DNA of 64,000 nt from Notolepis coatsorum (lineage: Eukaryota; Chordata; Actinopteri; Aulopiformes; Paralepididae): positions 96,794,121 to 96,858,120 of the forward strand of contig OZ020589.1 of NCBI GenBank assembly GCA_963971535.1. The letters are read 5' to 3'. Below, piece after piece: positions 3,900-61,113 of the stretch. The position numbers and the translations under genes are program-made. Each line of letters starts with the position of its first letter. Within the stretch, counting starts at the first letter, position 1. The notes under the pieces are model-generated. The model had not been told where the DNA came from. It was given only the letters and a program-made list of their open reading frames with translations, and did no database searches.

Positions 3900-5150
3900 A
3901 TTGATAGGAAGAATGAAAAAAGAAGGTTGCCAAGCAGAACTCATCTGTTCTGTTTCAGGGTCTGTCTCAGGCTATGGTTAGACTAGTGTATTCCTGGCGT
4001 TTTTTTTATACGTTTTTGACGACGTATGATGTCCTATCTACACAGAAACGCGTTTTTTGGCGTTTTTTTGTGGATACGGCTGAAACGCAAAATTGTGTTT
4101 GCATTTGGAGATACGCAAAAAAAACGAGTCGACAACAGCGTGTAGTCAGCACGCTAGCCGTTGTTGCGAAAACGCCCATGCGCAGTAGATACCATCTGCG
4201 TGCCCTTCCGGTGACAATGACAACAGTGTGTGTGTTTGGGACAGAGCTCCGTGTCCCAAATAGCTTCAGCTACCATGTGTTGTCAAGTTATTGTTATAAG
4301 GACCCCAGTCCAAGCTACAACAGTCTGCATTCCCCTAACAATTGTTTGTATTGAGCCGTATTGTATTGTACCCATATGCAATATGTTAAATAAAGTTTAC
4401 ATCCATTCATTCTGCTAGCATTACCGATTGCAAGAGCAGCTGGCTAACGTGAGCTATCAGGATTCAGACCCTGTTAGCTCAGAGTTCCTCTTTCAACTTA
4501 ACAAGCATTAAACAAAATGGCCCAGTCATCTATTCACCTTTGTTTAATACACACAGCGTTGTCTCTAATGTTATCTAACTACTGATAGCTCGCGATATCA
4601 TCAGTTTTGTTGCTGGCTAAGTAGCGTGAGCTAACGTTAGCTTCTAGCCACAATGCTATATTGTTATAATGGCATACTCCATTGACGTTAGCATGCAGCT
4701 AACAATGCTACCGAGCGTTTTTTAGACTAAAACTATCCGCTCTTGGTGGTCACTTGTGTTGATGTTAGTTTTGTTTCATCAACAAATGACAAGCAGAACA
4801 CACAGTGAATGTATCCGTTTTGTTTATTGCACTTTTATTAGGCTTTGCTGGAAAATTATTGCTGCATTGAGTAAACAAGATGGTGGCGCGGCATAGGCTG
4901 CCTTATTGACATTTTCTTTGGTGGAGCTTCCACCAGGAAGTGTATTGGCACATTCGTTCTGATTGGTTGAAATTGCCTTCATGTTTGCCACCTACTGCCA
5001 CCTACTGCTTTGGCAGTGTACTACATCAGTGTGCTTGGCTGACAAAAATGAAAAAAAAACGAAAGTGTGACTCGAGGCGCATGACGTCGCGGCGATACGC
5101 GGCGATGCGTATAAGAAAACAATACGAAGATGATACGAAAGGTGTAACCT
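3900..5150. other. unassigned stretch with a degenerate LINE tail at 4290-4412
   Basis: 4290-4412 matches the LINE 3' end seen at 27840-28012 and 41335-41475 (CCCCTAACAATTG, TATTGAGCCGTA, GTTAAATAAAGTTT, then a CATT run). The remainder is rich in GTTAGC words but contains no coding frame I can support. Confidence 0.5.
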
Positions 5151-5151
5151 C

Positions 5152-5452
5152 AGCCTCAGTCTCCTCACTCATCTGTCTCCTCACTCATCTGTCCCTGTCT
5201 CCTCACTCATCCGTCTTGCTTCAGGGTCTGTCCCCGTCTCCTCACTCATCTGTCCCTGTGTCCTCACTCATCTGTCCCAGTCTCCTCACTCGTCTGTCCC
5301 TGTGTCCTCACTCAGCTGTCCATGTCCTCACTCAGCTGTCCCTGTGTCCTCAGACTCCTCACTCATCTGTCCCTGTGTCCTCACTCATCTGTCCCGTTTC
5401 AGGGTTTGTCCCTGTGTCCTCACTCATCTGTCTCCTCACTCATCTGTTCCGT
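5152..5452. repeat. minisatellite, about 20-bp units (CCTCACTCATCTGTCCCTGT)
   Basis: About a dozen imperfect units vary in length as single words are gained or lost. The long forward frames here arise from the repeat. Confidence 0.9.
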
Positions 5453-5495
5453 TTCAGTATCTGAATTCTGTCTCTCTTTCATCTGTACCCTTAGA

Positions 5496-6360
5496 CAGGG
5501 AACAAAATAAGTACCAGCCAACCGCCAATGGCTGGTAAAAAATCTGCCTGGCTGGTCGTTTTTAAAATCTACCAGCCAAATGGCTGGTAAGTCAAAAAGT
5601 TAAGTTTGTTCCCTGAGAGCAGAGCTACACAGCAGTGCGCCTATTTTGCGAGCCGAAATAAGTCTGTGGTTTTTTCTTCTTCTCACAACGAGTCAAATGC
5701 ATCTAACATGCATTGCATCGTCGCCATTCCTTTATGCCCACATCGCCCGAAATGAACGTTATGTTAGCGTAAGCTAACAAGCTAATCCTGATCAGCGGCA
5801 GAGCCATAGAGAACAGCAGACAGTGTGGTCTGGGGAAAGGGAAATGGGGGGGGGGGGGGGGCACTCTCCCTTTCTCTGTGTGTGTGCGTGCGTTTGGAAA
5901 GACGATGAAGTCACTAGTCAGGACTCAGGAGAGGAGTATATTGTAGTAAACTGAGGATTACTGAGGATGCACAGATAATGTTGATATTCAAATATAAAAA
6001 GGTTTCGAGAGGAGTGGAAGTTTGAAGACAGACTAGACTACAATATGATGCGGGGTGGTGAGTTGAAACAGTGTGTGTGTCCCCGACCCCACTTCTATGT
6101 TTCAATAAATTATTTGCATTTAAAACTATTAACGCTGACTCATTCCTTCAGTCCACTCAAAATTATGCTAATATTCCTTATGTTGTTTATGATATTAATT
6201 GAAAATAGCATATGAGAGTATTATATAGTAATAATAACACATGGCGATATACTAAAAAGCAATTTTAAATTTTTGGCTGGTAAAAAATCTGCCTGGCTGG
6301 TAGTTTTTAAAATCTACCAGCCAAATGGCTGGTAAGTCAAAAAGTTAATTTTGTTCCCTG
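5496..6360. mobile_element. hAT non-autonomous element with duplicated end
   Basis: The termini CAGGGAACAAAAT and ATTTTGTTCCCTG are flanked by an exact 8-bp duplication CCCTTAGA (5488-5495 and 6361-6368). The left 5531-5617 segment repeats the right 6274-6360 segment in direct orientation, including a terminal GTTCCCTG. The left end alone therefore resembles a complete 122-bp mini-element. There is no transposase; the interior resembles 820-1060. Confidence 0.88.
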
Positions 6361-6368
6361 CCCTTAGA

Positions 6369-7249
6369 ACTTGGAAGTGCGACCTAAAGGAAATTAATTT
6401 ACACATCCAAGTAAAGAAAGGTGCGTTTTGCTTTCCACATGGTGGCTGTTCTGCTTGTTGTCCGTTTAGAAGTGCGTGTGAGACTGCTGGTCGTGCAGCA
6501 GGTGAGGTGAAATGAGTTCCGTCCTTCACTTTAGAGAACGTACCGTGCACTGGCACACATTTTAATTGTTACTTATAATTATACTATATTCTATTGTGCT
6601 TGTATTCTATTGTGCTTCATTTAGTTTATATCCCATTAAATTGTATTCAACCTCTTTATCTTACAGTTGTAAAACCCTGGCCTACTTTTTTCATTTCATA
6701 ATTATATTCTATTGTGCTCCTATCTTAATTTAGTTCATATTTCATTTTATTCCACTTTTTTTATTGTCTGTCCGTTAATGTCGCACCGAAAACGACCAAA
6801 TCTAATTATGTGCATGTGAAAACTACTTGGCAATAAAGACCCTTCTGATTCTGATTCTTCTGTGAACGCGACCACGTGGAATTTTAACTCACACGCTCAA
6901 AAAAAGTGTTGCAACGTGGAGCCCTGCAACATCTAATCCAGATCAGGTCCTTTGCGAGATTAGCCGCAGACAGATGCAACCGATCGCATAATCCCCCCCA
7001 GGCTTCGCCCCTGGAGTAGTTGGGAGATAATTACAGGCTATAATGATTGAAATGATCAAAGCTCCATCCTCCGCAGGGGTCAGTCAGCTGATCCAGGATC
7101 AGCAGTATCACTCTTTACTTTTATATATTAATTTATTACATCCGGTAGGCTTAAAACATGCCATTCTGAACTATGTTTGTTTGCATTTGATTGACTTGCT
7201 TCATCATCATTCATAGTGTACAGTACAGAGTAGACCCTCACCTGCACCT
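6369..7249. other. LINE-tail-like segment and unassigned DNA
   Basis: 6560-6865 is AT-rich and ends TGGCAATAAAGACC followed by repeated TTCTGA, a tail form common for fish LINEs. 6870-7249 shows no gene or clear repeat. Confidence 0.45.
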
Positions 7250-7550
7250 TGCGTATACCGTTTACTTTTACTGAGTCGTAGTATATATATATATTCAGAT
7301 TTTTTTTGTCCATTGTCAATAATTTATTTTATTGTAACGTATATAATATAACCAATAGGGTATACAGACCCCCATCTGCACCTTTGTTTACACCGTTTAT
7401 TTGCTCTCATATTTTTATATTCAGATCCAATTTCATTGCCTAAATGTATGTATTTCTACTATTACCCTGCCCATACCTCCCCCATACTGCTATGATATCT
7501 GAATTTCCCCAAGGGGATCAATAAAGGAATATCTTACTCTTATGTATAGC
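7250..7550 (+). repeat. LINE/SINE 3'-end family with GGGGATCAATAAAGGAATATC tail, copy 1
   Basis: The stretch from TATACCGTTTACTTTTA through TACAGACC, CTGCACCTTTGTTTACAC and TTTCCCCAAGGGGATCAATA recurs at 12280-12462, 13593-14045 and 51290-51565. The CCCC/GGGG hairpin just before a short tail is typical of CR1/L2-like 3' ends. Confidence 0.65.
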
Positions 7551-8479
7551 AGTTTCTGTATAAAAGTAGTTTTTTTTGTATTAGTTTTGTTAAACATTAT
7601 GAAACAAGTAATATTTAGTGTTGAGGTTTTATAACATGGTTTCATATATAAGACCTTTCTTTAATATTGTGAGAATGGACTCCCCAATGAACTCAGCGAG
7701 TGTGCACAGTGAAGCTCCTTCTTTTACATCTATTTTGGTCATAGCTATAGAAGGTATCTGCATTTAGTTGATTTGTCACTTTAAACATTGTTATATGTTA
7801 TATAAACCTAACCTACCTTAACCTCACCGTTTATAAAATGTAACAATTACCTTAATATCAGTTGTATAAAAATATATAATATATTTAAATACTTTACCCA
7901 CGCCCACCGTGACCTTTAATAGATATTAAAAAAAAAGTGCGTTTATCGATTCCCGAAATTATGGTTTTCAACTCAATGAAAACACCTTCTAGTCAACATG
8001 TTGTTTTGCCATGATGACAAATCTATCTGATCCACGATCGACCTCTTGCTCTGCTGAAGAAAGCTGTGATTGTGTTGGTCCCTTGAACCTGGTTTGGATT
8101 AGTCAGTCAGATCATGCTAGTTTGAATTTGCCTTCACGTTATCTCTGATCGACTTGTCAGGTTCACTCAAACCAGGGTTGAAAAACGAATTTTCGCTTTT
8201 CCTTTAGCCTGCTTTGTGGAACAACAGCCATCCGGGGACCCATATGGTCCAAACTGACTGGAGTTGAGTAGAGTTCTCTCACAGCCAGCTGGCTCAGCTG
8301 GGGGCACAAGCCACCAGGTCTGGTTTCAACTCTGCCAAGGAGTTGTCGTGGGGGTCTCGGTCGGGCCACCAAATATTTACCAGTCATAAGTTATTTGAAT
8401 AAGTCTTGTTATCCTTCATTCCAACAGCCATCACTGAGCACAGAGTGACAGTACACACTCTGGTAATCTTCCTGGACTT
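7551..8479. other. unassigned sequence
   Basis: AT-rich, with no coding frame I recognise. The minus-strand frame at 8163-8387 has no family resemblance that I can support. Confidence 0.3.
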
Positions 8480-20600: not shown

Positions 20601-23600
20601 TTCGGTTCTAGTGGCTTCTCCACGTTGAATATTATTCTATCTCTCATTCCTTATCTATATATATTTTTTTTTATTATTCTATTTTTTATCTCTATCTTTT
20701 AACTTACATTGTTCTTTTCCATTGTTCTTCACATTAAGGTGTCAATATTTCTCTACAATCTTTTCCTTTTTCCTGACTTTCCTACATGTTAGTAGAGGGT
20801 TCAAATGAATATGTCGATGAAAGTTTATTCTCTTTTTTTTTTCATTTTACACAATATTTCATTACAGTAAGGGAAGGTGCAAGACCAAAAGCGACATTCT
20901 ATTGCATTAGAATGAAAATGTTAGATCCTATGGCAATTAGCATAGGAAGATTAGGATTACAATGCTCAGTTTGGGCAATCCGGTGGACTAAGGGAGAGAG
21001 TCATTCGCGGAGGATGTGTTTTTGGAACACAGGCCTGTACGACTCTCTGGGCGAGGGGAAAATAGGGGATTTTTATTTGTATATATATATGTTTTTAAGC
21101 TCGGCTCTCAACGGGACCTCATTAATTGGATGTACATCTATTGTAGCTTCGCACTCCAGAAGCATTACCAAAAACTACACAAGAACATGCATAGATTATG
21201 GCTAGTTTGAATATAATGATATGGAACACTGGTGGGATAAACAAACAACACAAACGCAAAAGCGTGCTCACACTGATGAAAAAAGAACATGTGGACGTGG
21301 CTCTATTAAGCGAAACGCACATTTTAGAGGAAGACATAGATACGTTAGCGGATAACATATACCATAATATTAGTCACTCTTCTTTTGGTACGAGAACTCG
21401 AGGTGTAGCCATAGTCGTCAGACGTAAATTAAATATCGAATTAAAAGGGGTATGGTCGGATGCTGAGGGGCGTATAACTATAGCTAGGATTGTACATAAT
21501 AACAGGAAAATAGTGTTGGCAGCGGTATATGCCCCAAATTTGTACGAAGTTGGTTTCTTCACTTCACTAACCGGGGAAATGTTAAACCATCCCGAGTACT
21601 CATATATAATAGGTGCGGATTTTAATGCCATTTGGAATCCAAGGATGGACAAATCTTACCTTGCCTTTTCCAGCGAACAAAAAAATTCATCTAAAGCATT
21701 AAAAGATTGGTCAAAGACTACAGGGGTAATTGATTTATGGCGCTCACTTAATCCCATGACCCGAAAGTACTCCTGTCGTTCGGCGAGACACAACACATTA
21801 TCCAGAATTGATTACGTCTTTGCATCCCCGAGAATATTTGATAAATATGAAGTGGAAATGATACCCAATGCGCTTTCAGATCACTGTTATTTAATCCTGA
21901 AAGCAACATTTGGTATACTATCTTCCCGGGCCCCAAGATGGCGTTTTAATACTATGCTGCTTAACAACAAGGAATTCATTACACAACTCAAAGAAGCTCT
22001 CACAGTATTCTTACGGGATAATGCAAACGCGGTGCAAGACCCCAGAATATTATGGATGTCGGTAAAGGGTATGATCAAGGATTTCACGGATAGATTTTCC
22101 TCCATATTGCGCAAAAATCAATGCACAAAACTGTCTGAAATGGAAACGCTTTACTCAACGTTATTTAATTCTTTAAAATACAACAACTCTACTGGACTAG
22201 AAAATCAAGTTAACATTCTAAAGACAGAGATCAATGCAATATACAGACAAAAATCGGAAATGCAAATATGCAGCACAAGACAACAGCAGTATTTCCAAGG
22301 TTCTAAACCTAGTCACCTATTAGCCATGCGATTAAGAATTAATGCAAAATTTGCAGATATAACTGCCATTAGAAAACAACAAGTACTTGTAACAGACCCC
22401 AAAATAATAAACGATACATTCAAAGAATTCTACTCCGACTTGTATAATTCAGAAACGACCTTTGATCAAAACAAATTAGACACATATCTTAATCAAATTA
22501 TTCTCCCTAAACTTTCGGAGGACGACGCTAAACAGTTAGAAGCACCGATCACATTGGAAGAACTCAAGAAGGCCATATCCGGAATGAAAAACGGTAAGGC
22601 TCCGGGAAAAGACGGTATCCCATCAGAAATGTACCTTTCTTGTTGGGACATATTTGGACCCTTATTACTAAATATGATCTTATACTCAGTCAAGGAGGGG
22701 AGCTTCCATAAACACCACAATATCGCACTCATTTCAGTCCTTCTCAAAAAAGACAAGGACCCCACTGAGTGCGGTAGTTACAGACCTTTAAGCCTCCTCG
22801 GAACCGATGTCAAACTGTACTCTAAGATATTAGCCATCAGATTGCAAAAGCATATGACGTCTTTAGTTCATCCGGACCAAACTGGCTTCATAAGAGGTCG
22901 CCTGATCAATGATAACATAAGGCGAATACTGCACGTACTAGATGCAGACAAAGAGGACACCACACCTAAGGCGATGCTATCCCTGGATGCTATGAAAGCA
23001 TTTGACAGGCTGGAATGGTCGTTTCTATGGGCAGTATTAGAAAGGATGGGGTTAGGAAAAGGATTCATTGATATGATTAAAGTACTATACAAGGAGGGCG
23101 GTTAGGTGGCCGAGCGGAGATTGCGTTCGTCACCAACCCCGGAGCTGTGAGCTGGATTCGCCTGTTCGAATCCAGCTCACAGCTCCGGGGTTGTCACCAG
23201 CTTGGCTGGCCGTCTGCACTAATACGATTGGCTGTATTAGAGGGTGGGAGAAGCTGGCGGGGTGGGTCCGGGTCGTTGTAAACAGCGACTCCTACAGTTC
23301 GGTCGGGGCGCCTGCTAAGCGCGGATAGGACTCGAGGGGGATAGTGTGGTCCTCCCACACGCTACGCCCTCTCGATAAGAATCCGCGCTGCCAGGTGAAA
23401 AGAAGCGGTGATTGGCTGGACGTGTGTCGGAGGAAGCACGTGGTAGCCTCCACTCTCCCAGATGATCTGACTGTGGGGGGTAAGTGCGCAGCGACCAGGA
23501 AGGGACTGGGAATTGGCATACGACTAACATTGGGATGGGAGAAAATCGGAGGAAAAATCGAGGAAAAAAAAAAAAAAAAAAAGAAAAAAAAAAGTACTAT

Positions 23601-26153
23601 ACAAGGACCCATCGGCCATGATTACAACAGGCACATTCATCTCCGAAATCTTTCCGGTATCACGCTCAGCCAGACAGGGTTGCCCTCTTAGTCCCGGACT
23701 ATTCGATCTATCATTAGAGCCTTTAGCACAATATATAAGACAATCCCAATACATAGAACCAATCGTAATCAAGGGCACACAACATAAAATTAGTTTATAT
23801 GCGGACGACGTAATATTGTTCATGCAAAGCCCCAACACCACATTGCCTCATCTACTCAAGTTGATAGAGAACTTTGGTGATTTATCGGGATTTAAAATAA
23901 ATTGGCCGAAGTCGGCTTTCCTTCCTCTTAACATCCGAGCAAAAAAAGACACAACCCTCCCAGGTGCGATACCCATGGTTAAACATTTTAGATGCTTGGG
24001 TGTGGAAATATTTCCCACCATAAGGCAAACGGTGAAGCACAATTACACAAAAATACAGAACAAAATCAAAGACGACCTGGACAGGTGGGCAAAACTTAAA
24101 AACTCAGTACAGGCAAGGGTATCAATAGTTAAGATGGATGTATTACCAAGAATCAACTTCATCAGCTCAATGCTACCGTTACCTCCTCCAGAGGGCTACT
24201 GGAAAAGATTACAATCCTCCACATACAAATTGATTTGGAATAACAAACCACCTCGCATAAAAAGATCCACCGCACAGAGAAATAAAGCAGACTGTGGCAT
24301 GGCAGTTCCAGATTTTTTACAATATTTTAAGGCTTTCACATTAAGACCATTGACAATATGGTTTGATCCCCAGGCTTTGGTATCTTGGAGAGAATTGGAA
24401 GAAAACATAGTAGCCCCACAGAGACTGAAGGACATAGCACACACTAAACTTTCAATCAAGCACTGTGAGCGGGAATTTGGCCCCATAATTACCCATGCAA
24501 TCAGAACATGGCGAGAAACACAAAAAAAATATCCTAACCCTCAAAAATGGCATAATCACACTCCCATATTCAATAACAATGCACTCTTAATGGGAAAACG
24601 TCCTATAAGATTCCCTATATGGGAAGAGCAAGGCATACACTCATTAGGGGATATTTTTAATAACCAGGGCTTCTGTAGTTATGGAGAAATATGCACAAAG
24701 TTTAACCTCACAGAGTCCACATGGCTTTTTTACATACAGTTACGCCTATGTTTGAGGTCTCACGGTGTTCCATTACACATACCAGTTGAACACCACAGAT
24801 ACCACACATTTTTCTATGAAAGAGAAACATTGGGAGGTTTTGTATCAGGTTTTTATTATCAATTACTAACGTCCTCGTATGAAACCCTTCAACTAGACAC
24901 TGTCTGGAGGAGGGATATTCCAGACCTGGAAAGTGACTTTGATTGGCAAGAAGCATGGGCAAATGTCCGTCTTACATCAAGGAACCCGGACCATCAACAA
25001 ATCAATCTTAACTATATTCACAGGACATACTTGACTCCTATAAGACTGAACAGAATGGGCCTGAAACAAGACTCAAAATGCACCCAATGTACAAATGGAG
25101 ACGAAGGGACATTTATGCACATGTATTGGGACTGCCCACCAGTTAAGGCATTCTGGAAAGATGACCCATCAATTATCAAAACTCGTATCTTGGAATATAC
25201 CAGTACACCCCTCTGTATTGCTTTTAAATGATGTTTTTGAGTTTGCAGTAAATCCACAGCTAAAGAGATTGGTCTTATCGGGTATCACAGTAGCTAAAAA
25301 ACTGATCGCATCACGCTGGTTTCAACCGGAAAAAATGTGCCGGAAAGTTTGGTCTCTTACATATCTCGATGTGATATATCAAGAAATATCTACAGCAAGA
25401 ATTCTGGGTCTCAACGAATCCAAAATGTCAATGTGGGTAGAAGTGGTGGAGAGAATAAAAGCTAGCTTATAATGGTAGTGTCTGTTAGGAGTGAGGGATA
25501 ATGGAGGTACTATCCAAGGAGGGGTCCGGGAGGGGGGGGGTTCGAGCTGGAGCATATGTGTGTAGGGTTTTAGAAAATAGGTATTAGGGGTATGTTCTAT
25601 ATAAACATTTATATAATTGTAATTTCGCTGGATATACACTGTATACGGTTAAAATGTTATTATAGACTTTTTTTTTATCTTGTTTCTGTACTTGCATGTC
25701 ATTTTAACCACCTTGACTGTTAGTTTCATTATGCATTATGTGTTGAGTACTGACTTTTAATAATTTTTGTTTTGCAATAATAAAAAAAATATAAAAAAAA
25801 AAAAAACTTTTAGAATACTTTTATACAAAATGCTTCTTTCTGTTACGCTCCAGAGACTGTGCTAGACAAAAGATAAGTATAAAATAAAATAAAATAGTAT
25901 AGCATGTAAAAATAGAAGTAAAAATAGAAGTCACGTACGTAGACAGTGTTCAGTATATACATATGTACAATGTTCGATGCAGAATAGAGTAACTGAGTTA
26001 CTGTACAATATACAATATACTATGCAATATACCAATATACAATACTATATAGTGCAAAGCAGAAATGGGATGAGGTACAATTTACAGTAAGGTGTACTGA
26101 GGTATGGGTTGTAGTGCAATCCTTTACCAATAAATATAAAGTGTGTATATAAA

Positions 26154-36034: not shown

Positions 36035-39000
36035 TTCGTTTTATACAATTCTGAGGTAGGCTTACTCTCTTGGTAAATATTAACACCATACCATTATATG
36101 GTATTTACTGCACAGCCAGGCCAGCATATACATGAAACCCGGCTTGTATTAGGAGGCCGGCTTATAATTGCTTAGCTCAACAGCGCACCCGGTCATTAAT
36201 AGAGACCCGGTTTTTAATTGAATACCGGTTACTATTAGAGGAATTACGGTATATGACATTTAGGTATGACACAAGCATTTTTAGTATAGAAATGTGTCAA
36301 CAGACTAAAGCAGGGAACCACAATATTTTGCATACAATTTATGCAGAATGTAATATCATAACTGTCTATTATTTTTCTTGCAATTGAGCCAATTTTCCTT
36401 AGGTACGGTTTTGAGGTGTGTGTTCAACAGAATGTAGTATCAAAAACACGTTCACAAAAAGTATGGGTTACTGAATGCTGAACTGCACTGTTATAATCAC
36501 TAAGCCATTGTAAGACCTTACCTGTGTCCCTGTATCACTTGTCTCTGCTGCCCTTTGATTAAAAAACGTCTGCATGTCCATTTTCCTTTTTTTGTGGCAT
36601 ATTTGAGTTAGTAGTAAAAGTCACCTAGTAAAAGTGAGATAATTGACTATATCAAAACATGCTAGGGCTGTACCGAATAGTTCGAAGCTTCGTTCATAAT
36701 GTTGACATTCTAATTCTAAATCAACATAAAAAAATTGTAATTATTTATAAAAAAAAAAAAAAAAAAAAATATTTGTAATTTGCCAAGGTATGGCAAGTGC
36801 CTTACCTTGCAAAAACAAGGAGGTAGGGACCGCACTCGGAATATCGTTGTTTTTATTTTCAAGTTGTTAAAGGGCACAAAACGTTTTCAGCCATCCGGCC
36901 TTCATCAGTGTGCAAATGACAAATGTGACAAACACAACTTAAATAGGCTGTACTTGACAACAGGTGGGAACAATCGGCAATCAGTTAACAGGCTAGGTTG
37001 ATGTCATGATTAGTAGCAGGGCTAGATTGACAAGTAGATATCACAATATCACAATATCACATAAATGTGTATGATGGTAATATATGAAAACAACAAATTG
37101 ATACATATTACAATATTTACAGACCTGTATGGAATAAAAAAAAAAGGCAGTACATTGGGGTGCATCAGGTTGTTAAACCGTTCATTAAACAGTGTACTAG
37201 TTTTTCTCTCTCATACAGTAGATAACTTTGGATAGTACCTAAATAAATGGAGCTCATAAAGTAGATAACTTAGGATAGCATCTACAGGAATGGAGCCAAA
37301 CTGGACTCTTCATTCATCCCAAATGTCGTGCCACAGGGGAATTAATGCCAGTCCGCTTTATATTGCTATATTAACGACATTAATTCCCCTGTGGCACGAC
37401 ATTTTAACGAAATGGATCATAAAATTTATGACCTCAAGTGCATAGGTCTAGAGATGGTTTTTCTTAATAGAAGAGGTGGCAACCATGAACAACTGCTTTT
37501 GCAACAGGAATGTGTATGGATTCATCGGCTCAAATCTATGTATCCAGTTGGGATGAATGAAGAGTTCAATTTGACTCCATTCCTTTAGCTATCATAAGTT
37601 ATCTACTGTATAAACAAAAAACTAGTACACTGATTAATTAACGGTCTTACAACCTGATACCCCCAATGTACTGTGTTTTTTGTTCCATACAGAGTTGTAA
37701 ATTATATATTGTATATTGTATTGACATCGGCTCAAATCGATGTATTCCATCTGGGATGAATGAAGAGTCCAGTTTGGCTCCATTCCTGTAGATGCTATCC
37801 TAAGTTATCTACTTTATGAGCTCCATTTATTTAGGTACTATCCAAAGTTATCTACTGTATGAGAGAGAAAAACTAGTACACTGTTTAATGAACGGTTTAA
37901 CAACCTGATGCACCCCAATGTACTGCCTTTTTTATTCCATACAGGTCTGTAAATATTGTAATATGTATCAATTTGTTGTTTTCATATATTACCATCATAC
38001 ACATTTATGTGATATTGTGATATTGTGATATCTACTTGTCAATCTAGCCCTGCTACTAATCATGACGTCAACCTGGCCTGTTAACTGATTGCCGATTGTT
38101 CCCACCTGTTGTCAAGTACAGCCTATTTAAGTTGTGTTTGTCACATTTGTCATTTGCACACTGATGAAGGCCGGATGGCTGAAAATGTTTTGTGCCCTTT
38201 AACAACTTGAAAATAAAAACAACGATATTCCGAGTGCGGTCCCTACCTCCTTGTTTTTGCAACTTAATTAATGTTGGACTACGCACCTGTCTGAGCGCAG
38301 TGGTTACCCCCTTTTTCTACCATAAGTGCCTTACCTTGCCATAACAAAATGACGCCCCTGACCTGCACTGGCTCCCCATTGCTGCACGAATCTGCTTCAA
38401 AGCCCTCGACCTAGCATACCGTGCGGCAAAGGGAACCGCTCCGGCCTACCTCCGGTCAATGGTCTCCAACAACTACATACCCTCAAGACCCCTACGCTCT
38501 GCATCTTCTGGCCGCCTCAGACCTACTCCTATCCGAGCTCCAGCAGGGTCATCAAGGAGAAGCCGCCTATTCTCAGTCCTTGCCCCACAATGGTGGAATG
38601 AACTACCCACCCCAGTCAGAACAGCCGAAACCCGTCCAATCTTTCGCCGGCGACTAAAGACGCACTTCTTCAACCATTATCTGAAAATAAAATAAAAATA
38701 TATCTAACCCTAACTAACCTTACTGTCATGCACTTGTCCTAATAAACTAACCTACACTGTAGCACTCAACACTTTGATGAACATTGTTACTCAGCTGATA
38801 GAGTTGTGCCCTTCCTGATGACTTGTCGTACAAAACTTGTAAGTCGCTTTGGATAAAAGCGTCAGCTAAATGACTAAATGTAAATGTAACACAACACACG
38901 CACCGCATTATGAGATGATTATGAGTTTTGTTCGTTATGCAGATCGGAAATAAATGATTGATTCATTGTATACAGCCAAACGGATGGATCAAACTCTTTA

Positions 39001-41988
39001 TTATGTGCGCGTAGACTAGGCTAATCCCGGAGTGGAAGTGGCAAGTAAGAAATCCGAAATCGCTTGTAAATTGCCACTATACAACCTACACACAGCAGTT
39101 GGATTAAGCTCTAAAACTAGAAAAAACAAGGTTCTCATTGAAATAGGGGTGTAACGGTACACATATTCATACCGAACCGTTTCGGTATGGGACTTTTGGT
39201 TCAGTACGTGCTGTGTACCGAACGAATGCAACATTACTTTAACCACTAATGGAACGCACATGCAGAACTTTAGTTCAGCCCCTTCCCAAAATATAACGCA
39301 CACCACTGAGAGATTACCTGTAATTTTGCATAGTCTCCTAGTATGGCGAACGCAAACGACAAGCCAGAGCTAGAAGACCTACCAGACTTACCATAACAAG
39401 GCATCGTGATGTCCGAAAATAAATAAATAAAAGCACCACAAAAACACTGCAAATTACAGTGAATAAATAAATAATTAAGAACTAAACTCAATTGCGTGGA
39501 TATATAGCTATAGTGGAATAGAATGGACACATCTACATTCAGCTCTCAGCACATCCCATTCCTTTCATGTAGGATATATATTTGCACTTTCGTATTAACA
39601 CATTCAGGGCCATTTAGGCCGGGAGCCAGGTCCACCCCTCAGGATGTTTTTTGCTACCTTTTTTTCATTATTATTTCCTGTTATCCCATACCTTGGGCCA
39701 TCACGAGTTGATAATGACCACCCCCAAATCAGCCCCGTCTTGGCTCTTTTTGGGAAAAGCTTCTGGCGAAATTATGTAATTGCAAATATGAGGGTACTGC
39801 GACTGCATAAATGGTCAGATAAGTCTGAAACTTTGCATGGTGTATCCTGACACATAGGGGAAAAGTATCAGAATAATACTCTGGAGCTTACTACCTTTCT
39901 ATTGTCAAATATCACCCTCAGAATACCCCAAAAGACAAAAGAAATGTTTGTCCGCCTGACAAATTGTCATCAAAAGTGATAGTTTTCAAGTATTTTATTA
40001 TACATGTTGCTGCTTCACATGGATATAAAAACGTCCCACATTTATAAGCTTCAATTTAAGTCCAAGATGACCTTTCTATCTAGAAATAGTACACCTGCTA
40101 TGACCAACGTTCTCCATTGGGTGACAATATTGTCACAAGGAAAGACGAAATTACCTACCTGGGTTCCATCCTAGAGGCAAATCTTTCCTGTGACAAAATG
40201 GCATCCAATGTAATAAAAAAAGTCAACCAACAAACTCGATTCTTGTACCGGATCTCCTCTCTGGTAAACAAGAATACCGTGAAGACTCTGGCAGGAGCAC
40301 TCATTCAAGGGTACTACGACCTGCACCTGATGCGTGCACCTCATGGTACCAAAGCACCTCAAAAAATTACAAACATCACAAAACAAACTGGTCAGACTAC
40401 TACTTGACCTTACCCCCAGAACCCACCTCACCCCTGCCCACTTTGACAACCTAGGATGGCTTAGAGTAGACGACAGAGTACAGCAACTTGCAATGGGCCT
40501 GGTCTACAAGATACACTATACGAATAAGGTACCCATGTACATGTCAAAATTAGGGATGCTCGATATTGGCTTTTTTACCGATACCGATATTCCGATATTG
40601 TCCAACTCTTAATTTCCGATACCGATATATGCAGGGTTTCCCACCCCAAAAAACGGAATAATTTCAGGTAACTAATCATTTCACTGGTTATATATATAAC
40701 AAATATTGTTATTGTTTTTTCTTTTTTTAAACCGATACCGATATTTTTCGATATCACATTTTACTGCCGATATCGGCCGATAATATCGGTCGGCCGATAA
40801 TATCGGACATCCCTAGTCAAAATACTTCCCAAAGGTCAGTGAATACCACAACCACTACACCAGAGGAAGCTCAACAAATCATGTTAAACCCAGATTCGGC
40901 TCAAACAAGGGACTAAATACATTTCGCAATTATGCCACATCAATGTGGAACGCCCTACCCAAAGCTGTAAAGGAATGTGAATCCCTACCCACATTCAAAA
41001 CTGCTCTTAAAGAGCACCTACGGGAGGCTGCAATTCGAAACTGGCCACCGTAAATGCCCAAAACCCAGACCACCTCCTAATAGACAGTCTCCTCCCCACT
41101 GAATGTATATATTCCCTCCCCGCCATATGTATATTTCTCTCCCACCCACCCACCCCCTCCTAATGTACAGTCCCCTCCCCATCATATGTATATACTCTGT
41201 CAGGATCTAGGGGTAACAGTACTGTATATTTGAATACCGTTTATGTCACAAATGTATCAGTACTAAATACCTATATGTCCCTATGCCATAAATGTCATGT
41301 ATGTTGTGTATGTCATAAATGTCTATATGAATTGAAAATGGGGGACCCTGATGGAAACAAGACAAACGTCTTTCTCAGGTCTGCATCCCCTTAACAATTG
41401 TGTGTATTGAGCCGTACTGTATTGTACCCATTCTGCAATCTGTTAAATAAAGTTTTCATTCATTCATTCATTCATTGTACCTCAAATCGAGAAAATAGAA
41501 CATATTTCTTCTCTTTTTTTTCTCCCTTATTTTTTATATCTAAAAAATATATTAAACAAGAGTTGAGACTTAAGTAATGTAATGCTATACTATCTGGAGT
41601 TAATTACATGAAAAGTGAACAATGTTACGCCCCCTGGTGGACCGGGGTATCACAGTGCAACATAAAACAGATTGAGCAAAGGAGGGTTCAGTCACAGAAA
41701 ACCCGGTAACCAAATATGAAATGTATTAAGTCCAGGCAACACAATGAACAAAATGACTCTAGTGTGCAGTCTGTTATCAAGAAGTAAATAGAATCAACAT
41801 TACTAAACTGTAGATAGATATTCTATACAGCCAAATGGAGAAAATAAAATACAGCTCAAACTAAAAATAGAATACATTTCTTTGGTTCTTAGACCCCTTT
41901 TGCTGCTTACTCTATTTGCTGTGATCCATTAGCTGACTATAAAACTATGATAATTTTTATTAGAATTTTAATCATCATTTTCCTCCTC

Positions 41989-42026
<38 letters not shown>

Positions 42027-45000
42027 TATTTGTATGGATTTCATCTGCTAAGTCATCTTCATCCGTTTCTTCTTCTGCCAAGACATCGACGAGGGCTTTG
42101 GGGATGACGTCACCCTCAAACCACAGTGGTTCTAGCTTGCCAGTCTCTGTGTTAATGTGAAATCCATGGTCAAGAGGGGATGGGATCTCCGGGTAGTCCT
42201 CATGAGCCCTCTTCCAGACACATGCCTGGAAGTTGACTCTTCTCGTGTGCTGTAAGAGGACCCTCTTGCAAGGTGGGAAGGTGGAGAGGTCAACGGAGAT
42301 ACCCTGTCGAAGCTCAAGGCTTGAGCCACACATCTTGACTTTAATCTCTCTTGCCTCATCAACCTTCTTGATTCGACGACTGAAACCATAGAGGCGACAG
42401 GTGAACTCTTCAACACCACTGAGAATCCACTCATCAAGCTCCCAAGAGTTCCCCACTTCAGCAAAGATCTGGATAAACTTTTCTGATTAAGAATCTTCAT
42501 CGGTCGCACCTTCGCTTTGCCTTTGAATGCTGATGTGCAGTCAGCACCAATGAATGCGTGCAAGGCCAGGAGAGCTGAAATGTGTTCCTCTGAGTAATCT
42601 TCAGCCAGCTGGTTGAGGTTGATCAGCCTATCTCCCATGTCAAAGAGGATGTTGACAGTTGATCACTTGGCATAATACAGGAGGATGAAGAAAATGTCAG
42701 AGTATTTTGCTCTGACTCTGACTGTTGTGATGTGAGGCCTTTTGGTTTGGATATACTGCATGTAAATGATTACCCTCACATCCGTTTCTTAATGTTTTGA
42801 ACAGATCTCAGGTAGAAGCTCTTTAGACATCACTCCAGCATTGCATGCTTGACCAGCCTCTACAAAAATAACAGGCCTTCGGAGGATGTCTTTCATCATA
42901 TCTTCAGAGCTCCAGTGATCCAGAAGTAAATGAATGAGGGCCTTCTTGTTTTCATCATTTGTGAGAAAACCATTCCAATCAGTGGGCCGATGAACATTTA
43001 GCCCCTCACCATAAAACATTCACCACAACCTCTGCGATCCCTCTCAGCTGATTTTGGTGAATGAAGACGGTCAAGGTCAGTGTCTGCTGATAGTTTCAGC
43101 TGTAGCCGGTAGACTTTTGAAGGTGCGCTCTGATATATTCTTCACTGTTCGTGGCACATCACGCATGTAGAATGAGGAGTTTCCATCTTGAATGAGAGCA
43201 CATTGGCTTGGGGAAGGAAGTTGGGCATTCTCAGCATCTTTGATCATGTAGTTAATTTCGTTTGCTTTGTTGGCTTTTGCGGAAAAAACGATCGATTGTT
43301 GAGATGGAGTATGGCGTCAGAGTCAAGGGATAGGTCATTAGGTCAGAGATGCTTATTTGTGACTTGAGTTGTTGTGATTTGACAAAGATCTGAAAGATGA
43401 ACCCACTTGTGGCCTTGTACTGGATCACTTTCTGGTTTGATGCCACAAGCTTCCTTTTAGGTGTGGTAGATGACATTGTCTTGAATCTGTTCCTCTTGGT
43501 AGGTTAAAAGAAAAGGACTTTTTTTGTCTGAAGTCGATCACAGATGAACATCTCTTTTTGAGTTTTGCCATTTTTCAGGGCATTCAACACATCATTGCGC
43601 ACCTCTTCTGGCATAGCTGCTCCTAAAGTCAAACTTGTCAAGGGCTGAGAAGTATCAAGCTGAAATGGGTTGATAAAACTCTGTTTGCTGGACTTGCTTC
43701 TCAGACAGTGATTTCACGTGTTCTTAGATCTCGTTGCTGCTTCTCTGTATGTTCACCTCGGTCGATTGTCATTTTCCACATCTCTTCTACATACTCTCCT
43801 TTGGCATGGGCAGTCAGGATATGACGTTGGCTGGCTTCATAGTTACTGGTGATTCCACAGATCCCTGCAGAATATGTTCCAGACCCTGAGTTTGACTTGA
43901 GCCATTTCATAGCAGTCTCTTCTATTGTTTTGTCAGTGTGGCAGCGGTTGGCTGGGATATGTGATCTGGATACATTGATTGCTCCAGCACGCAAACGTTT
44001 CTCAGATCCTGGATGTGTTTCCTCAATGTGTTCAAGATAGTATCCCAAGTATGTGAGGAATCTAGCATAGTTCTGCTGGTCTGAGCAGAAGAAAAGGTAT
44101 GGCATGTTGTTTAGGGTGGCTTTGTATCCTTTATAGTCATTCATTTTGATTGCCTTATTCATTGACAGGACGAGCCAGGTGCAGTCCATGTATTCCATCC
44201 AAAACTGTCCAGTTTCTCCCAGCTTCCCATTTCTCACGGCTTCTCTGAATGCATGATATTCTGCCATGTGGTGAGATACATCTTCTGATGAGAGCACTTC
44301 AGCGAGAGTAGATTGATTCAGAGTGAGATTTTCCAAAAATGCAGTTCATTCTGCAGAGAGTGGTTCATGAGTTTCCAGATACTTGTCATAGAGGAGTCTC
44401 TCTAGAGCTTCCAGCATGGATTTGTGTGTGTTCATTGCTCTGTCCCAGTTATTATGTGCTTGTGTGTGGAGAGATCAGTGTTCAGTGTTCTGATGGCCTG
44501 GGGGAAGAAGCTGAGTCTGAGTCTCTCTGTTCTTGCTGCGTGTATGCAGAGGCGGTTGCCTGACTGCAGCAGCTTGAACAGGCTTATGTGCCAATATACA
44601 TTCATTTAGATCCAATGTTTCACATTTCATTGACATCTAACCTCAGACACGGACTAATATCCCAGACTGGGGGCGGTGGCTGATTCTTCTTTGAAGCACT
44701 CTGGCAAATTATCCAGGCATCTTGTCGTCTCTTTGACACCTTGACTATACAGTAGCATTGCAGCCATCAGAAAGTCAGTATATTCATTACAGCAAAATAT
44801 TGTACACACACACACACACCATAAATATCCCACTTCTGCTCTCACTAGTCTCCCACTAGCTAGCTACATTGGGCTGGCAGCTAACAATCTACAAGCTAAC
44901 TAGCTAATGTTATCACTGTAGAAGTAGAGTTGCTAATAATTATAATTTATTTTCTTAATAATTACAATTTCATAATTTCTCTCCCACTTCTACTCTCACT

Positions 45001-48000
45001 AGCTAGCTACATTGGGCTGGCTATATTAGCTAACAATCTAAAAGCTAACTTAATGTTATCACTCTAGAAGTAGAGTTGCCACCTTTCATGTAAAAAAGAT
45101 ATTGGACACAGCCAGAATAATAGATCAACATTGTCTTTGCTGAATAACTTCAGGTGGGATGTGACATGAAACAGGGTTAGGGTTTTGGTTGGTTGGTGTG
45201 TGTAACCCGGTCAGCACTGCTTTATGTTGCACTGTGATACCCCGGTCCACCAGGGGGCGTAACATTGTTCACTTTTCATGTAATTAACTTCAGATAGTAT
45301 AGCATTACATTACTTAAGTCTCAACTCTTGAGAAGAAATAAGGGTAATGCTTGAATGTTATATTTTCTCGATTTGAGGTACAATGGAGAACTTTGGTCAT
45401 AGCATGTGTACTATTCTAGATAGAAAGGTCATCTTGGACTTAAATTGAAGCTTATAAATGTGGGCAGTTTTTATATCCATGTGAGGCAGCAACATGTATA
45501 ATACAATACTTGAAAATGATCACTTTTAATGACAGATGAAGGCGGACAGAATTTCTTTTGTCTTTTGGGGTATTCTGAGGGTGATATTTGACAATAGAAA
45601 AGTAGTAAGGCCCAGAGTATTATTCTGATACTTTCCCCCTATGTGTCAGGATACACCATGCAAAGTTTCAGACTTATTTGACCATTTATGCAGTTGCAGT
45701 ACCCTCATATTTGCAATTACATAATTTCGCCAGAAGCTTTTCCCAAAAAGAGGGTTTTTTGGCCCCTGAGGCCAGACAGGGCTGATTTGGGGGTGGTGAT
45801 TATCAACTCGTGATGGCCCAAGATATGGGATAACTGGAAATAATAATGGAAAAAAAGGTAGCAAAAAAACATCCTGAGGGGTGGACCTATCTCCCGGCCT
45901 AATTGGGATGAGTCTAATAAATCTCTAGAGGGCCGGCAAATGTAAACAGACGTGGGGCTGTTTGTAGAGCTAAATCTATACTTTATAGTATTGCTATCTG
46001 TCCATTGAGACCATAAACCGTCCCTTCAAAATGGCTTAAAGAAAAAAAAAATTCATCAATACGTTCTCATTTTATAGCGCCGTGAATATAAGCGTTATAC
46101 GGGATTTCGGCTAGGATATTTCCTGGAAGCCGAGATACAGGGCTAATAGCTACTACCGTTATATCCAATGGCATTTCCGTTATACATATGCTACAGAAAT
46201 AACTCAAACTGCATATGATCGGCACGATCCTCAAGCATGTATGCATGAAAGGGGGGGGGCGTTGTTTCTGATTATTGATTACCAATAACCGCGTTAGCCT
46301 CATTAGCCTCATTCATTGATCGGATGGATGGCTATCAAAACAAGGCCCAATCGGGATGTACTTTATGTGAAAAATATCTTACCGTGGGCCGGTGGGATCC
46401 CCCCCGAGCATTTCCCCGTTATCGATCGCCATCTGGTAGATCGATATGTCCATTGGCTGATGATGAATCCCCTTATTGCATAGTGAAATCTGCAACCCAA
46501 AACGTAATCCAAGCTACAGGCTGCACATCCAGAATCGAGCTAACTGAAAACTCCATTGAAAGTGAAGAGTCCACCGTTCAGCCACAGGGCACACTCCATT
46601 ATCACGACAGCGCCCCTAAGAGGATCTGACCGGTAATGCACGTTGGCGAATTCAAAGAGTAGGGTAAATCTGCAGTGCCGCTCGGCGACCTTGAATAGGT
46701 TATTAAAATGGAATAAAAGCAATAACAACTTGCCACGGATATATCCGTGCTTCTGTCCACAACGGGTGGAATCGAAACACGGAGATCTCCGTGGTCGGGC
46801 GCCATTGTGTTAATATTCCACAATATAACACTGTCTTGTTCTCTTTTGTTATTATTTATTGTTGGTTTTATAAAATTTTTAGATAATCGCTGATCGTGCA
46901 CTGAGGAGGGAGCGCCAGTACCGCGACCAATGCGGACATATTCTATCATACATGGTGCACCTCGAGAAAACAGGATGAGGATGAGAGATGTCGGCACCTG
47001 CAGAATTCTCCTTGCAAATGTAGCGCATCAGCTTCATGAACGCCATGGAGATGCTCTGCTCGTACAGCTTTTCTGATCGCGTGATGCAGGCCCAGGTCCC
47101 TGCCGGGTACACCCTCTCCTCGTACACGACCTCGCCAAGCTGAAACACACATTTCAAACACTTCATTTGAATCCGTGCCCAATGCACAAGGTTCAAATAT
47201 TGCAGAGGTTTAAATTATGCTTTGAATACAAAACATACACACGGACACAAGGAATTGGGGCCAAGCGCTGAAATATCTACGGATTTTGTCGCCTGAAAGG
47301 GCAATCGACAGGCAACAAATAGGGCTTTAATTCGATATATATTGTATTTAAAAAAAGCCGCTAGAGGTCGGCAAAGTGGCGCGTCACACCGGTGGGCAAA
47401 TCTTCCTCAAGAGGTCCCGGGCCGCCTGAATTCTTTTACTAACAGATTTCCAGTTCCGCGTTCGCATTCTGCGCTCTGATTGGCCACTGACGTTTCTGGT
47501 CGCGCCAATCGTGTGACGGCAAGTTCTGCCACCGGTTAAGCTTAGGCACTCTTTCGAAGTTGGTTAAGGTTAGAGTTTGTCTTAGAGCAGGGCGATAGAA
47601 CACCAGCCCTGATTACAAACTCTAACCGTAACCAACTTCTTAACCAGTGTTAGGTAGTTTGCTGCTGTTCGAGGCGGAAATGGGCGCGTCACGCGATTGG
47701 GCGCACATGTCACATGACCAGAAACGTCAGTGGCCAATCAGATCGCACCAGAAACGTCAGTGGCCAATCAGATCGCAGAACGTGAACACGGAACTGGAAA
47801 TCCGTTAGTAAAAGAAATAAAGAATAGACACTCCCGGGCCGGGCCGGTGCCAGTTAAGAGGTTGATTAACATTTTCTTAAAACAAGATTAAATTGACCAG
47901 AATCACGGAAAAATACTTAAAAATAAGCTAAATGATCTGCCAGTGGAATAAGATAATTCAAGATAATTCTACTCAATATTGGACTTATTGTACCAAATAC

Positions 48001-56676: not shown

Positions 56677-59600
56677 ATCTCACTCTCTTTTTTTAAACAA
56701 ATAATACAAGATCAGATCTCACTCTCTTTTTTTAAACAAATAATACAAGATCTCACTCTTTTTTTTTTTTAACAAATAATACACTGCAAGGATATTTCAA
56801 GAAAACAAAAAAAATAAACTCAGTCATCATAACCAGTTATTCAGTAATCTAGCTTCCACTGTCCATTCTTCAGTGCTTTAAGCAGCACAAGCGAAGATGC
56901 TCTCTTTTTGGTCAGACAGTTTGCCAGCTGGTCCTTCGTAGTAGACCACAGAATCCGTTGGATCCTTTTGTCCTGGATAAGTTCTTTGATTCCACTTATT
57001 TCCAGTCTCAGTCGTTTCTCAGTCACTGACTTGGTGGACTTGATAGCCTCCACAAGGGAGAAGTTGTCTGTAACACACATCACAGGTAGGGTGCGCTGTT
57101 TGACCATACCTGTAGTAAGTTCAGAGTAGAGAGAGGACAAAAATATGGCATTATCAATACCATCAGCCAGGGCTAGTGTCTCTCCTGCCAGCGTGCTCCG
57201 AACCACTCTTCTGATCCTTTTTGATTTCCAGCAGATTGGAGAGAATCGTCCTTTCTCACCCATCAGAACGATGAGATGCCCTCCTTGTGTTCCCCCATCT
57301 GGGAGGTTTCCCATGGATGCGTCGCTGAAAACAACAAGCTTCAAACAGTCCTCCTTTCCTAAGTTGTGAAACTTCAGGGTGACATGTTCTGATTGCAGTT
57401 TTCGTACTACCTTATTTGCTTCATGCATAGTTTGCACAGTAGCATGTTTTAGATTGGTTGCAAGGACACATGTATCAAACATGATATCTGGCCTACTCTG
57501 TCTAGCCACCCACAAGAGTTGTCCTATTTTTGACCTTAGGTTGTCAGTCTCACACTCTGTGAGAAGAGCATCACGGTGCAACGCTCTTGATGGGTCTATG
57601 AGAATGGGCTGAAGGTTCTTTATGTAGATCTCCTGTTGCACAAGCACTTCTCCACCTACTGTGGAGAGTTCCATCCCCACATAGCGAAAGTTGTCTTGTT
57701 CCTCACGTCCCACCTGGAAAACTGTTTTGAGGTGGGGAATGGTCGTCGTGGCAAATGTGTGTGAGCCACCCCAGATGAAATCATCCACATGACAGGCAAG
57801 AACACCAGTCACAATACAGTTTTCATCAAGCCAGTAGAATACAGCAGGATCAACTTGTGACATAGTGGCCCCTGTTTTGATCATCGTTGCTTTTACTCTG
57901 TTGTACCAGTAGAGAGAGGCATCAGCGAGTCCATAGACACACTTCTTCAGCTTCCACAGTGTGCCGTCACTTTTAGCCTCAGGAGGAGGGCGGATGTGTA
58001 TATCCCGAGACAGCTCCATTCCTTGAAGAAAAGCTGACTTTATGTCCATAGAGTTCAATGTCATTTTTCTGACACAGAACTGATATGAGTAATCTAAGGG
58101 ACTCTGATGAGCATGTAGGCGAGTCCTTCTGTAGATCTTGAGTGTTAAATTCTTCAAAACCCCTAGCCACTAGCCGTGCTTTAGGTATGATACCATCTGG
58201 GGTTTCTTTAAGCGTACACACCCATCTCGTTGACACCTGTCTTTGACCCACATTTTTCACCTCCTCAAACACCTCATTTTTCCTCCAGTTACTGATTTCA
58301 TCTTGTTTAGCCTTATCAAATGGTACACCCTCTGTTACTAATACATCATTTTCCTGCATATCAGAGCATAGTTCTACACCATCTAGTTCTACACCATCTA
58401 GTGGCTTAACCTGAAAATTGTCTACTTTAGTAAGATCAACTGACCCCATAGTACCGGTGATGTCAAAAGGTTCTAAGTACTGTAGGTTGTACCAGTTGCT
58501 GTTTTTTCCTGTAGCCTTTCCTGCTCGTCCCATCACTTTAGCTGTGTGAGAAACACCTGTTACATTATCCACAAAGCTGATTGTCTGACCGGCTTTTACC
58601 TTTATACCGGTTTTCACCTCTATGCCGGTCTGGTGATAATCGTCTTGATTTATCGCATTAGGGTTATCTATATCCTGGTTTGCTACACCTGCTGCGTCAT
58701 TATTTATGTCACCATCAGTAACGGGCATGTCCTCACTGTTACTATTCATATCATTGTCAGTAACAGGCACATTATTATCACTAACAGATACATCGACATT
58801 GCCCACAGTATTACTTTCCCCAGGGTGCACTTTTCGCAGCCTAGATTGATGAACCCTGACATATGTCCCACCATGACGTACAAAAATCACCACCCCATCT
58901 TGCCCTATCACAACCCCAGGGCCTTTCCATTCAACACAGTCTGTCCTTTTGTAGAACACTTTGTCTCCCGTTTCATACTTCTCATCTGTTGGACGAAGCT
59001 GCTTTCGAAGAGCTCGTCTGATTCTCTCTGAGCATTCTGCCTCCGTAAAAGCTTTCCTTGCTGCATGTAATGCTGTTATGTGCTTTCCCACCCATGCGCT
59101 CATTGTAGTTCCCTCCAAAGCAGGTGGCTGGTCAACAAACACAGAGGGAAGGTTCGGGTTCTGTCCAAACACCAGCTGATGTGGACTGTAGCCATGCACG
59201 TTCTGCATTGTGTTCTTTGCCATGAGTGCCCAATCAAGAGCCGTTTTCCAGTCAAGTCCTTTGTCAAGTTTTACCTTCAGTAGTATCTCTGTAAGGGATT
59301 GGTTGTGGCGTTCCAGCAAACCATTGCTCCATGGACTGTAGCCAGCAGTCGTCTTGATCTCGATGTTGAAGTTCTCCGCCATGTCTCTTATTTCCTCATT
59401 ATTGAACTCTCCACCGTTGTCAGTGAAGAGACGCTCAGGTGGACCATGGACACTGATCCAGGAATGCACAAAATTGTTCACTATCACACTTGGCTTCTTT
59501 GAGGTCACGATGCTACCTGCACTAAAGCGAGTGAAGTGATCGATAATGTGTAGGTACCACACATTTGGTTCTAGCTCATGTAGATCAACTGCCACAGTCT

Positions 59601-61113
59601 CGTTGTACCTGGAGGCCATGGGCAGACCAACAGCAGGCTTGGGCTTAGCCTTGCTGTACTTGAGACATATCTCACATTTTCCTACTATTTCCCCTAGAAT
59701 AGCAGTGCATTCATCATCCGTGTTTCCAGCATTTGTCAGCAGCTTCTTTAGCCTATCAACTGATGCATGTCCAAATTGCTTGTGAAGTTTAAGTAAAGCT
59801 TTGTGTTTTTCCACACTGGTCATATTATCTGTGATGGCCAGGACCACATTCTCATATGCTTCACTCGGGGACTCCTTATCCAGTATGTTCAGACAGTAGT
59901 GTCCAGATGAAGTCAACTCTAGAGCTACTGGTTTCTGAAACATTATAGCTGTATCGTTTTCCAGGTTCAACACAGCTCCTGCCCTCTTTAGCGAAGTTTT
60001 ACTGAGCAGTAAAGGAATGTCAGATGAGACTACCTCTGTTTCAATATAACATTTTGTTTCTCCTATCTTGGCTGGTATCTTGACCTTTTTTGTAGAATGC
60101 ACAACTCGCCCATCCCCAAACTTAAAAGGTTTGCTACTCTCTGTGCTAACCAACCTTTTGACTTGTTTCTCATTTAGTCCCCCAACATAGTTATCCAGCC
60201 ATTTTTCACCACATACAGTCCGTGTACATGCCGTATCAATGACGGCCGTTCCCAGAGCCTCAACCATGAATATTGCTGCATCTGATACCTTAGAAATAAG
60301 TGTTATATTACACTCATCTGGCTCTTCATTTTCTTCCGTCACTTTTACATATTCTTTCTTGTTTGGGCAATCTTTCACCCAGTGGAATGTGCTCTGACAA
60401 ATCCCACACTTCGTTCGTCTTCCAAATTTATCAAGCGGATTAGTGCCTGCGAATGGTCCTCTAACTTGTCCATTTTGAGATCGCGGCTGCTCCCGCCTCT
60501 GCTGCTCTCGTCTCTGATCTGTGTAAAAAGCTGCATCTTGCTTCACAGTAATGCCTCCTGCCCTTTTCTCCGTTTTTTCTCCAAATATACGTTTCAGTCC
60601 TGACTTCATATCAACAAAGGTGTGCTTACCACAGGCAGTCAACGCCAGTTGTTTGTCTTTGATGTCGAGGCCCGCTGTATCCAGTAGTTTGAATGCCAAA
60701 ACAGCGTCAGGTAGAACCATATCGAACTTCTTGATCCGGTTGTACTTCTGTTCAAAATCAACAATATAGTCCACCATAGAGACGCCGTCTCCTCGCGAAA
60801 TCTGATCAAACTCCGAATAGGCTTCGTAAGCCCGGTCCTTCTCTTCTCTCAAAAACACACTGTCAAGTTCCCGAATCAAAGTTACCATTCCATCATCCTT
60901 ATTCAGATCATCGACAGGTATTTCCAACGCAGTATCCCTCGCTCTACCCGTCAACGATAGAGCAACAGCCAACGCTTGTTTCTTCTTGGCTAAATCAGTC
61001 ACCCGACTCCACATCTCCACTTCATTCTTCCACTTCTCAAAAGACGTCTTTTCGTCCAGTCCAGGCGGCTGCCTGTAGTTATTAACGTTAGAGGCCGCCA
61101 TCCTCTGCTACCA

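Follow-up and report, generated by a model that had tools for sequence, protein, structure and literature searches.

A degenerate, internally deleted DNA transposon of probable AcademX type and its transposase-nuclease gene remnant in Notolepis coatsorum

The window analysed here, a stretch of 64,000 nucleotides of Notolepis coatsorum (contig OZ020589.1, positions 96,794,121 to 96,858,120), carries at 39615-45901 a transposon of 6,287 bp that we interpret, with a probability of roughly 0.8, as a degenerate and internally deleted DNA transposon of the Academ superfamily (AcademX type). Two long inverted arms enclose the remnant of a gene. In the protein of this family a predicted RNase-H-like DDE transposase domain is fused with a predicted FEN1/EXO1/XPG-like nuclease domain, and the genome holds further copies in which arms, gene and 3-bp duplications occur together as a unit. 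On this reading, a 'PIN-like' gene family of animal genomes that had lacked an explanation encodes the transposase-nuclease of a transposon group that is most likely already known.

Results

Structure of the element in the window

The features of the element and its flanks are as follows.

39612..39614, no strand: left 3-bp target-site duplication, ATT
39615..40119, plus strand: left inverted arm, outer part
40120..41472, plus strand: long interspersed nuclear element (LINE)-like insertion of 1,353 bp splitting the left arm, with reverse-transcriptase-like frames judged by eye
41473..41654, plus strand: left inverted arm, inner part
41971..43316, minus strand: FEN1/XPG-like nuclease half, a remnant in several frames, with a DGN-type motif at 43190 and a GAD-type motif at 42560
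43507..44345, minus strand: C-terminal part of the transposase domain, a remnant, with the third catalytic motif DKTIEE retained at 43934
44453..44455, no strand: internal deletion junction (element positions 1380/4440 of copy L013)
44456..45216, no strand: noncoding stretch from the right arm to the gene, conserved in related copies
45217..45901, minus strand: right inverted arm
45902..45904, no strand: right 3-bp target-site duplication, ATT

The ends were set by comparison with the termini of other copies, the left one (TAGGCC...) falling at 39615 and the right one (...GGCCTA) at 45901; a previous sequence-only reading had located the element at 39614-45902, with one base too many at each end. 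The inverted arms of about 0.69 kb that it described are present, 45217-45901 pairing with 39615-40119 and 41473-41654 in four ungapped blocks of 88-202 nt each at 92-98% complementarity, which is far above chance expectation; across the family the arms measure about 0.69-0.72 kb. The insertion that splits the left arm ends in a CATT repeat, has CATTG on both edges, and is missing in the aligned copies L009, L013 and L017 (labels of this form denote arm or gene copies fetched from elsewhere in the same genome, slashes joining the labels of one element).

The gene remnant (41971-44453, minus strand) was traced as seven open pieces in several frames, and the description of it as a dead gene stands because stops and frame changes break it. 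Against L013, the longest copy fetched (7,953 bp, with 705-bp arms that are 98.6% identical), the window copy aligns mainly at 1-1380 and 4440-7953. The first and second transposase motifs of L013 (at 3276 and 4224) lie within the part deleted in the window, and the third, at 4959, lies in the part retained, so the deletion took the N-terminal region of the protein and two of the three catalytic acids. A nearly identical junction, 1387/4440, is present in eight fetched copies (L009, L011, L017, L018, L019, L020, L023 and L028), and a different one, 760/3265, was observed in L045 and L046, indicating more than one shortened form in the family. Even in the longest copies the gene is split over two frames, of 470 and 1,273 residues in L013 and of 613 and 973 residues in L012, and apart from inserted elements these two copies showed no further long gene. 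L013 also holds, at 4109-4586, a 48-bp tandem repeat (10 copies, 99% matches) that lies in the open transposase frame.

Recurrence of arms, gene and target duplications

When the source genome was searched with the arm, the best 40 of 334 first-look candidates being scored, at least 41 matches were obtained, which merged into 32 loci, nine of them paired by script. A search with one piece of the gene (piece a) gave 160 matches among the best 150 scored of 761 candidates, and the 98 listed rows with at least 50% identity were compared with the arm loci. The proposal that arms and gene recur together is borne out: at 25 of the 32 listed arm loci a piece-a row lay within the pair or no more than 20 kb inward of a single arm, and one further locus (C6:167569498, L014) is without piece a and has other pieces of the gene, so that arms mostly devoid of the gene were not what these 32 loci contained.

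Stretches were fetched for 22 elements including that in the window, and 15 of them have an inverted arm pair (the window, L009, L010, L011, L012/L030, L013, L014, L015, L016/L031, L017, L019/L034, L023/L032, L025, L026/L038 and L028). Gene DNA was found in 18 of the 22; it was not found in the fetched DNA of L015 (bar less than 80 bp from the end of the gene), L021/L035, L024 and L027/L036. By coordinates, the 29-kb arm pair of L024 encloses gene matches, and others lie about 15 kb inward from the L021 arm.

The termini of these copies are uniform, with TAGGCCGGGAGCC starting 24 of the 28 outer ends of copies other than that in the window; the four that deviate are the left ends of L012, L015 and L028 and the right end of L018. 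Thirteen elements had both ends readable, L023 and L025 being dropped for an incomplete outer end, and nine of these 13 are flanked by identical 3-bp sequences: ATT in the window, ATA in L009, TTT in L010 and L011, CTA in L013, TTA in L014 and L017, TAA in L016/L031 and AGA in L026/L038. Assuming 59% A+T, the chance of at least nine matches in 13 is about 9e-14.

A further 52 listed rows match piece a at 25-36% identity (e.g., C4:115959187-115959729 and C13:100445740-100446276), 21 of them within an open frame of 229 amino acids and one within an open frame of 1,404 amino acids. These suggest that the genome also holds one or several divergent families with the same transposase domain, which are perhaps younger.

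The protein family and its domains

Protein searches returned 81 relatives (7,995 candidates scored) and 111 relatives (7,991 scored), many of them single frames of about 1,550-1,580 amino acids and most without a name. Both fishes and invertebrates are represented, in agreement with the distribution previously suggested for the gene: the named hosts include the fish Coilia grayii, the molluscs Solemya, Patella, Haliotis, Nucella, Elysia and Pinctada, and the echinoderms Strongylocentrotus and Apostichopus. The Coilia grayii protein (P0002) is 86% identical to L013:2504-3913 over 450 aligned positions, and another relative (P0001) is 90% identical to L012:6188-9103 over 796 positions; horizontal transfer is worth considering if the host is not close kin of Coilia. 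Two relatives (P0046 and P0060) are filed under metagenome-assembled genomes of Candidatus Thiodiazotropha and are probably clam host DNA binned with the symbiont. Annotators should thus be aware that relatives are stored as animal hypothetical proteins and in part carry the label of a symbiotic bacterium. No sequence relatives appeared in the plasmids, viral contigs or prokaryote genome contigs searched.

Conservation was read from an alignment of 20 relatives, in which three regions can be distinguished. The N-terminal region has 17 strongly conserved Cys/His columns among the first 700, eight of which (61, 66, 128, 131, 183, 186, 245 and 248) are kept in 17/18, 18/18 or 19/19 rows and likely form two zinc sites, zinc binding being suggested by the residue pattern. 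In the middle region, DNFD occurs in all 19 rows with letters there, and the D of TFDL and the E of DKTxE in 20/20. The C-terminal region contains seven acids (DGN, EETD, DxD, GCD) that are invariant in 20/20 rows, which we take to be the active-site pattern of FEN1/XPG, and its predicted fold is of the FEN1/EXO1/XPG/GEN1 type, at about 8-15% identity in the listed rows of those nucleases. The label 'PIN-like' therefore holds for the C-terminal half of the remnant; the rest is what is left of a transposase domain. For that domain the nearest solved folds, among the matches listed, are those of Hermes and RAG1. The gene had earlier been thought to have no tie to any transposase superfamily, a view that we revise, since its relatives carry the RNase-H/DDE domain; the link was invisible from the window because this copy has lost its N-terminal half and with it two of the three catalytic acids.

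Profile libraries contributed little. Pfam-A gave no family for six pieces of the window gene and, for four frames of the long copies, DUF2172 alone, under its cut-off, and no transposase family; neither a profile search of the PDB nor a literature search on DUF6589 found anything. The top PDB sequence matches were to the malaria circumsporozoite protein and were rejected, such misleading matches being put down to the 48-bp tandem repeat noted above.

Discussion

Probable placement in the AcademX lineage

As described in the cited passage, AcademX elements produce duplications of 3 or 4 bp and AcademH elements of 9 or 10 bp, a difference tied to the possession of a nuclease or a helicase, respectively (PMC10045372). 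The element presented here has a predicted RNase-H-like DDD/E transposase, an encoded nuclease and a 3-bp duplication (9/13 elements), and since this combination, as well as the occurrence in molluscs and fishes, matches what that passage says of AcademX (PMC10045372), we regard it as probably a new family of this known lineage rather than a new class. The arms of about 0.69-0.72 kb are a possible difference, as they may or may not be usual for AcademX. AcademH, which on this hypothesis belongs to the same superfamily as the element, is unlike it in combining a helicase with 9- or 10-bp duplications (PMC10045372), against 3 bp here, and no helicase family was among the matches listed for the L012 and L013 frames, the 20 aligned members and the further relatives. 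The distribution of Academ reported in the parts of the literature cited extends to bivalves, with 100 curated elements of mean length 5,565 bp (PMC10294476), and to zebrafish, medaka and stickleback (PMC4746887).

The other systems compared are more distant. The Hermes (hAT) and RAG1/Transib transposases share only 6-8% identity with the element's protein; hAT elements duplicate 8 bp and Transib elements 5 bp of target, as opposed to 3 bp here, and we know of no hAT or RAG1/Transib transposase with a fused nuclease. The FEN1/EXO1/XPG/GEN1 nucleases resemble the C-terminal domain in fold and conserved acids, and differ from it in that the latter forms a single protein with a transposase and is carried by a mobile element.

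Several observations weigh against this interpretation. The 98 piece-a rows form 69 clusters, of which only 26 lie no more than 20 kb from a listed arm and 43 do not, the arm list being the best 40 of 334; in one of these 43, L046, the fetched stretch holds just about 15 bp of the 5' arm. Four of the 13 elements (L012/L030, L015, L019/L034 and L028) are without a matching 3-bp flank or are rearranged. The VIA scores of the transposase model are moderate (Hermes, root-mean-square deviation 8.0), Spt6 and Prp8 reach a score of 5.0, equal to the lowest RAG1 rows, and a Foldseek search with this model gave no match at E <= 0.001. Membership in AcademX is argued from layout and duplication length. 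To call the AcademX nuclease XPG-type goes beyond the passage cited (PMC10045372), which gives just 'nuclease'.

Alternative explanations

It is conceivable, and in our opinion unlikely, that the family is an undescribed superfamily, namely a fusion of a DDE transposase with a FEN1-like nuclease that resembles Academ just in layout and duplication length. The missing Pfam transposase family in both the window pieces and the long copies and the 705-bp arms, which may be unusual for Academ, would agree with such a superfamily; however, AcademX as described in the passage cited (PMC10045372) shares with the element a rare set of features, namely a transposase, a nuclease and a 3-bp duplication, and relatives occur in bivalves, where the source cited reports Academ elements to be abundant (PMC10294476). 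The name 'unnamed class' given in the sequence-only reading is accordingly the part of its proposal that we would not retain, given the fit of the AcademX features, while its suggestion of a transposon stands.

That reading also left open whether the protein is the mobility protein or cargo. A passenger gene within arms moved by an unrelated transposase would account for the arm-flanked copies that are without most or all of the gene in the fetched DNA (L015 and L027/L036), but the invariant D, D and E of a transposase-like domain are found in this same protein, and the two longest copies show no second long gene besides inserted elements. We consider this explanation very improbable and regard the family protein as most likely responsible for mobility. 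From the window alone one might also think that an inverted duplication, arisen locally or by chance, lies next to an unrelated pseudogene; this is refuted for practical purposes because these arms recur at many places with unchanged ends, next to 3-bp duplications that differ in sequence.

Proposed mechanism of transposition

For this probable AcademX-type element, the duplications and the presence of a DDE domain suggest cut-and-paste transposition with a 3-bp stagger, in which the transposase would act at the arm ends, excise the element and insert it into a staggered site, thereby creating the 3-bp duplication. The FEN1-like nuclease may trim flaps or open hairpins left by excision or insertion. 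More specifically, and only as a tentative proposal that we consider doubtful, the fused FEN1/EXO1-like nuclease could be a working part of transposition that processes the hairpins or flaps of a hAT/RAG-like transposase, with the arms of about 0.7 kb belonging to the system; if so, the element brings its own end-processing enzyme. As the exact ends, the 3-bp duplication and the predicted domain structures are now defined for the family, it becomes possible to test what the fused flap nuclease does. Without two of its three catalytic acids the window copy could hardly mobilise itself, and deletion copies of this kind most likely spread in trans, using the protein of longer copies.

Surroundings of the element

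The stated genome size of 3.42 Gb may be too small, given that 16 contigs add up to about 2.49 Gb by themselves, with many large ones besides; an overflow would give about 7.7 Gb, which is not proven. Other mobile elements abound in the window; the relatives obtained for one LINE frame are at most 48% identical to it. The following were recorded.

56844-61107, minus strand: Copia-like frame, judged by eye
21195-25228, plus strand: L1-like frames, with relatives that have endonuclease and reverse transcriptase
38826-38879, plus strand: UnaL2 LINE 3' element, the sole match of the RNA-family scan
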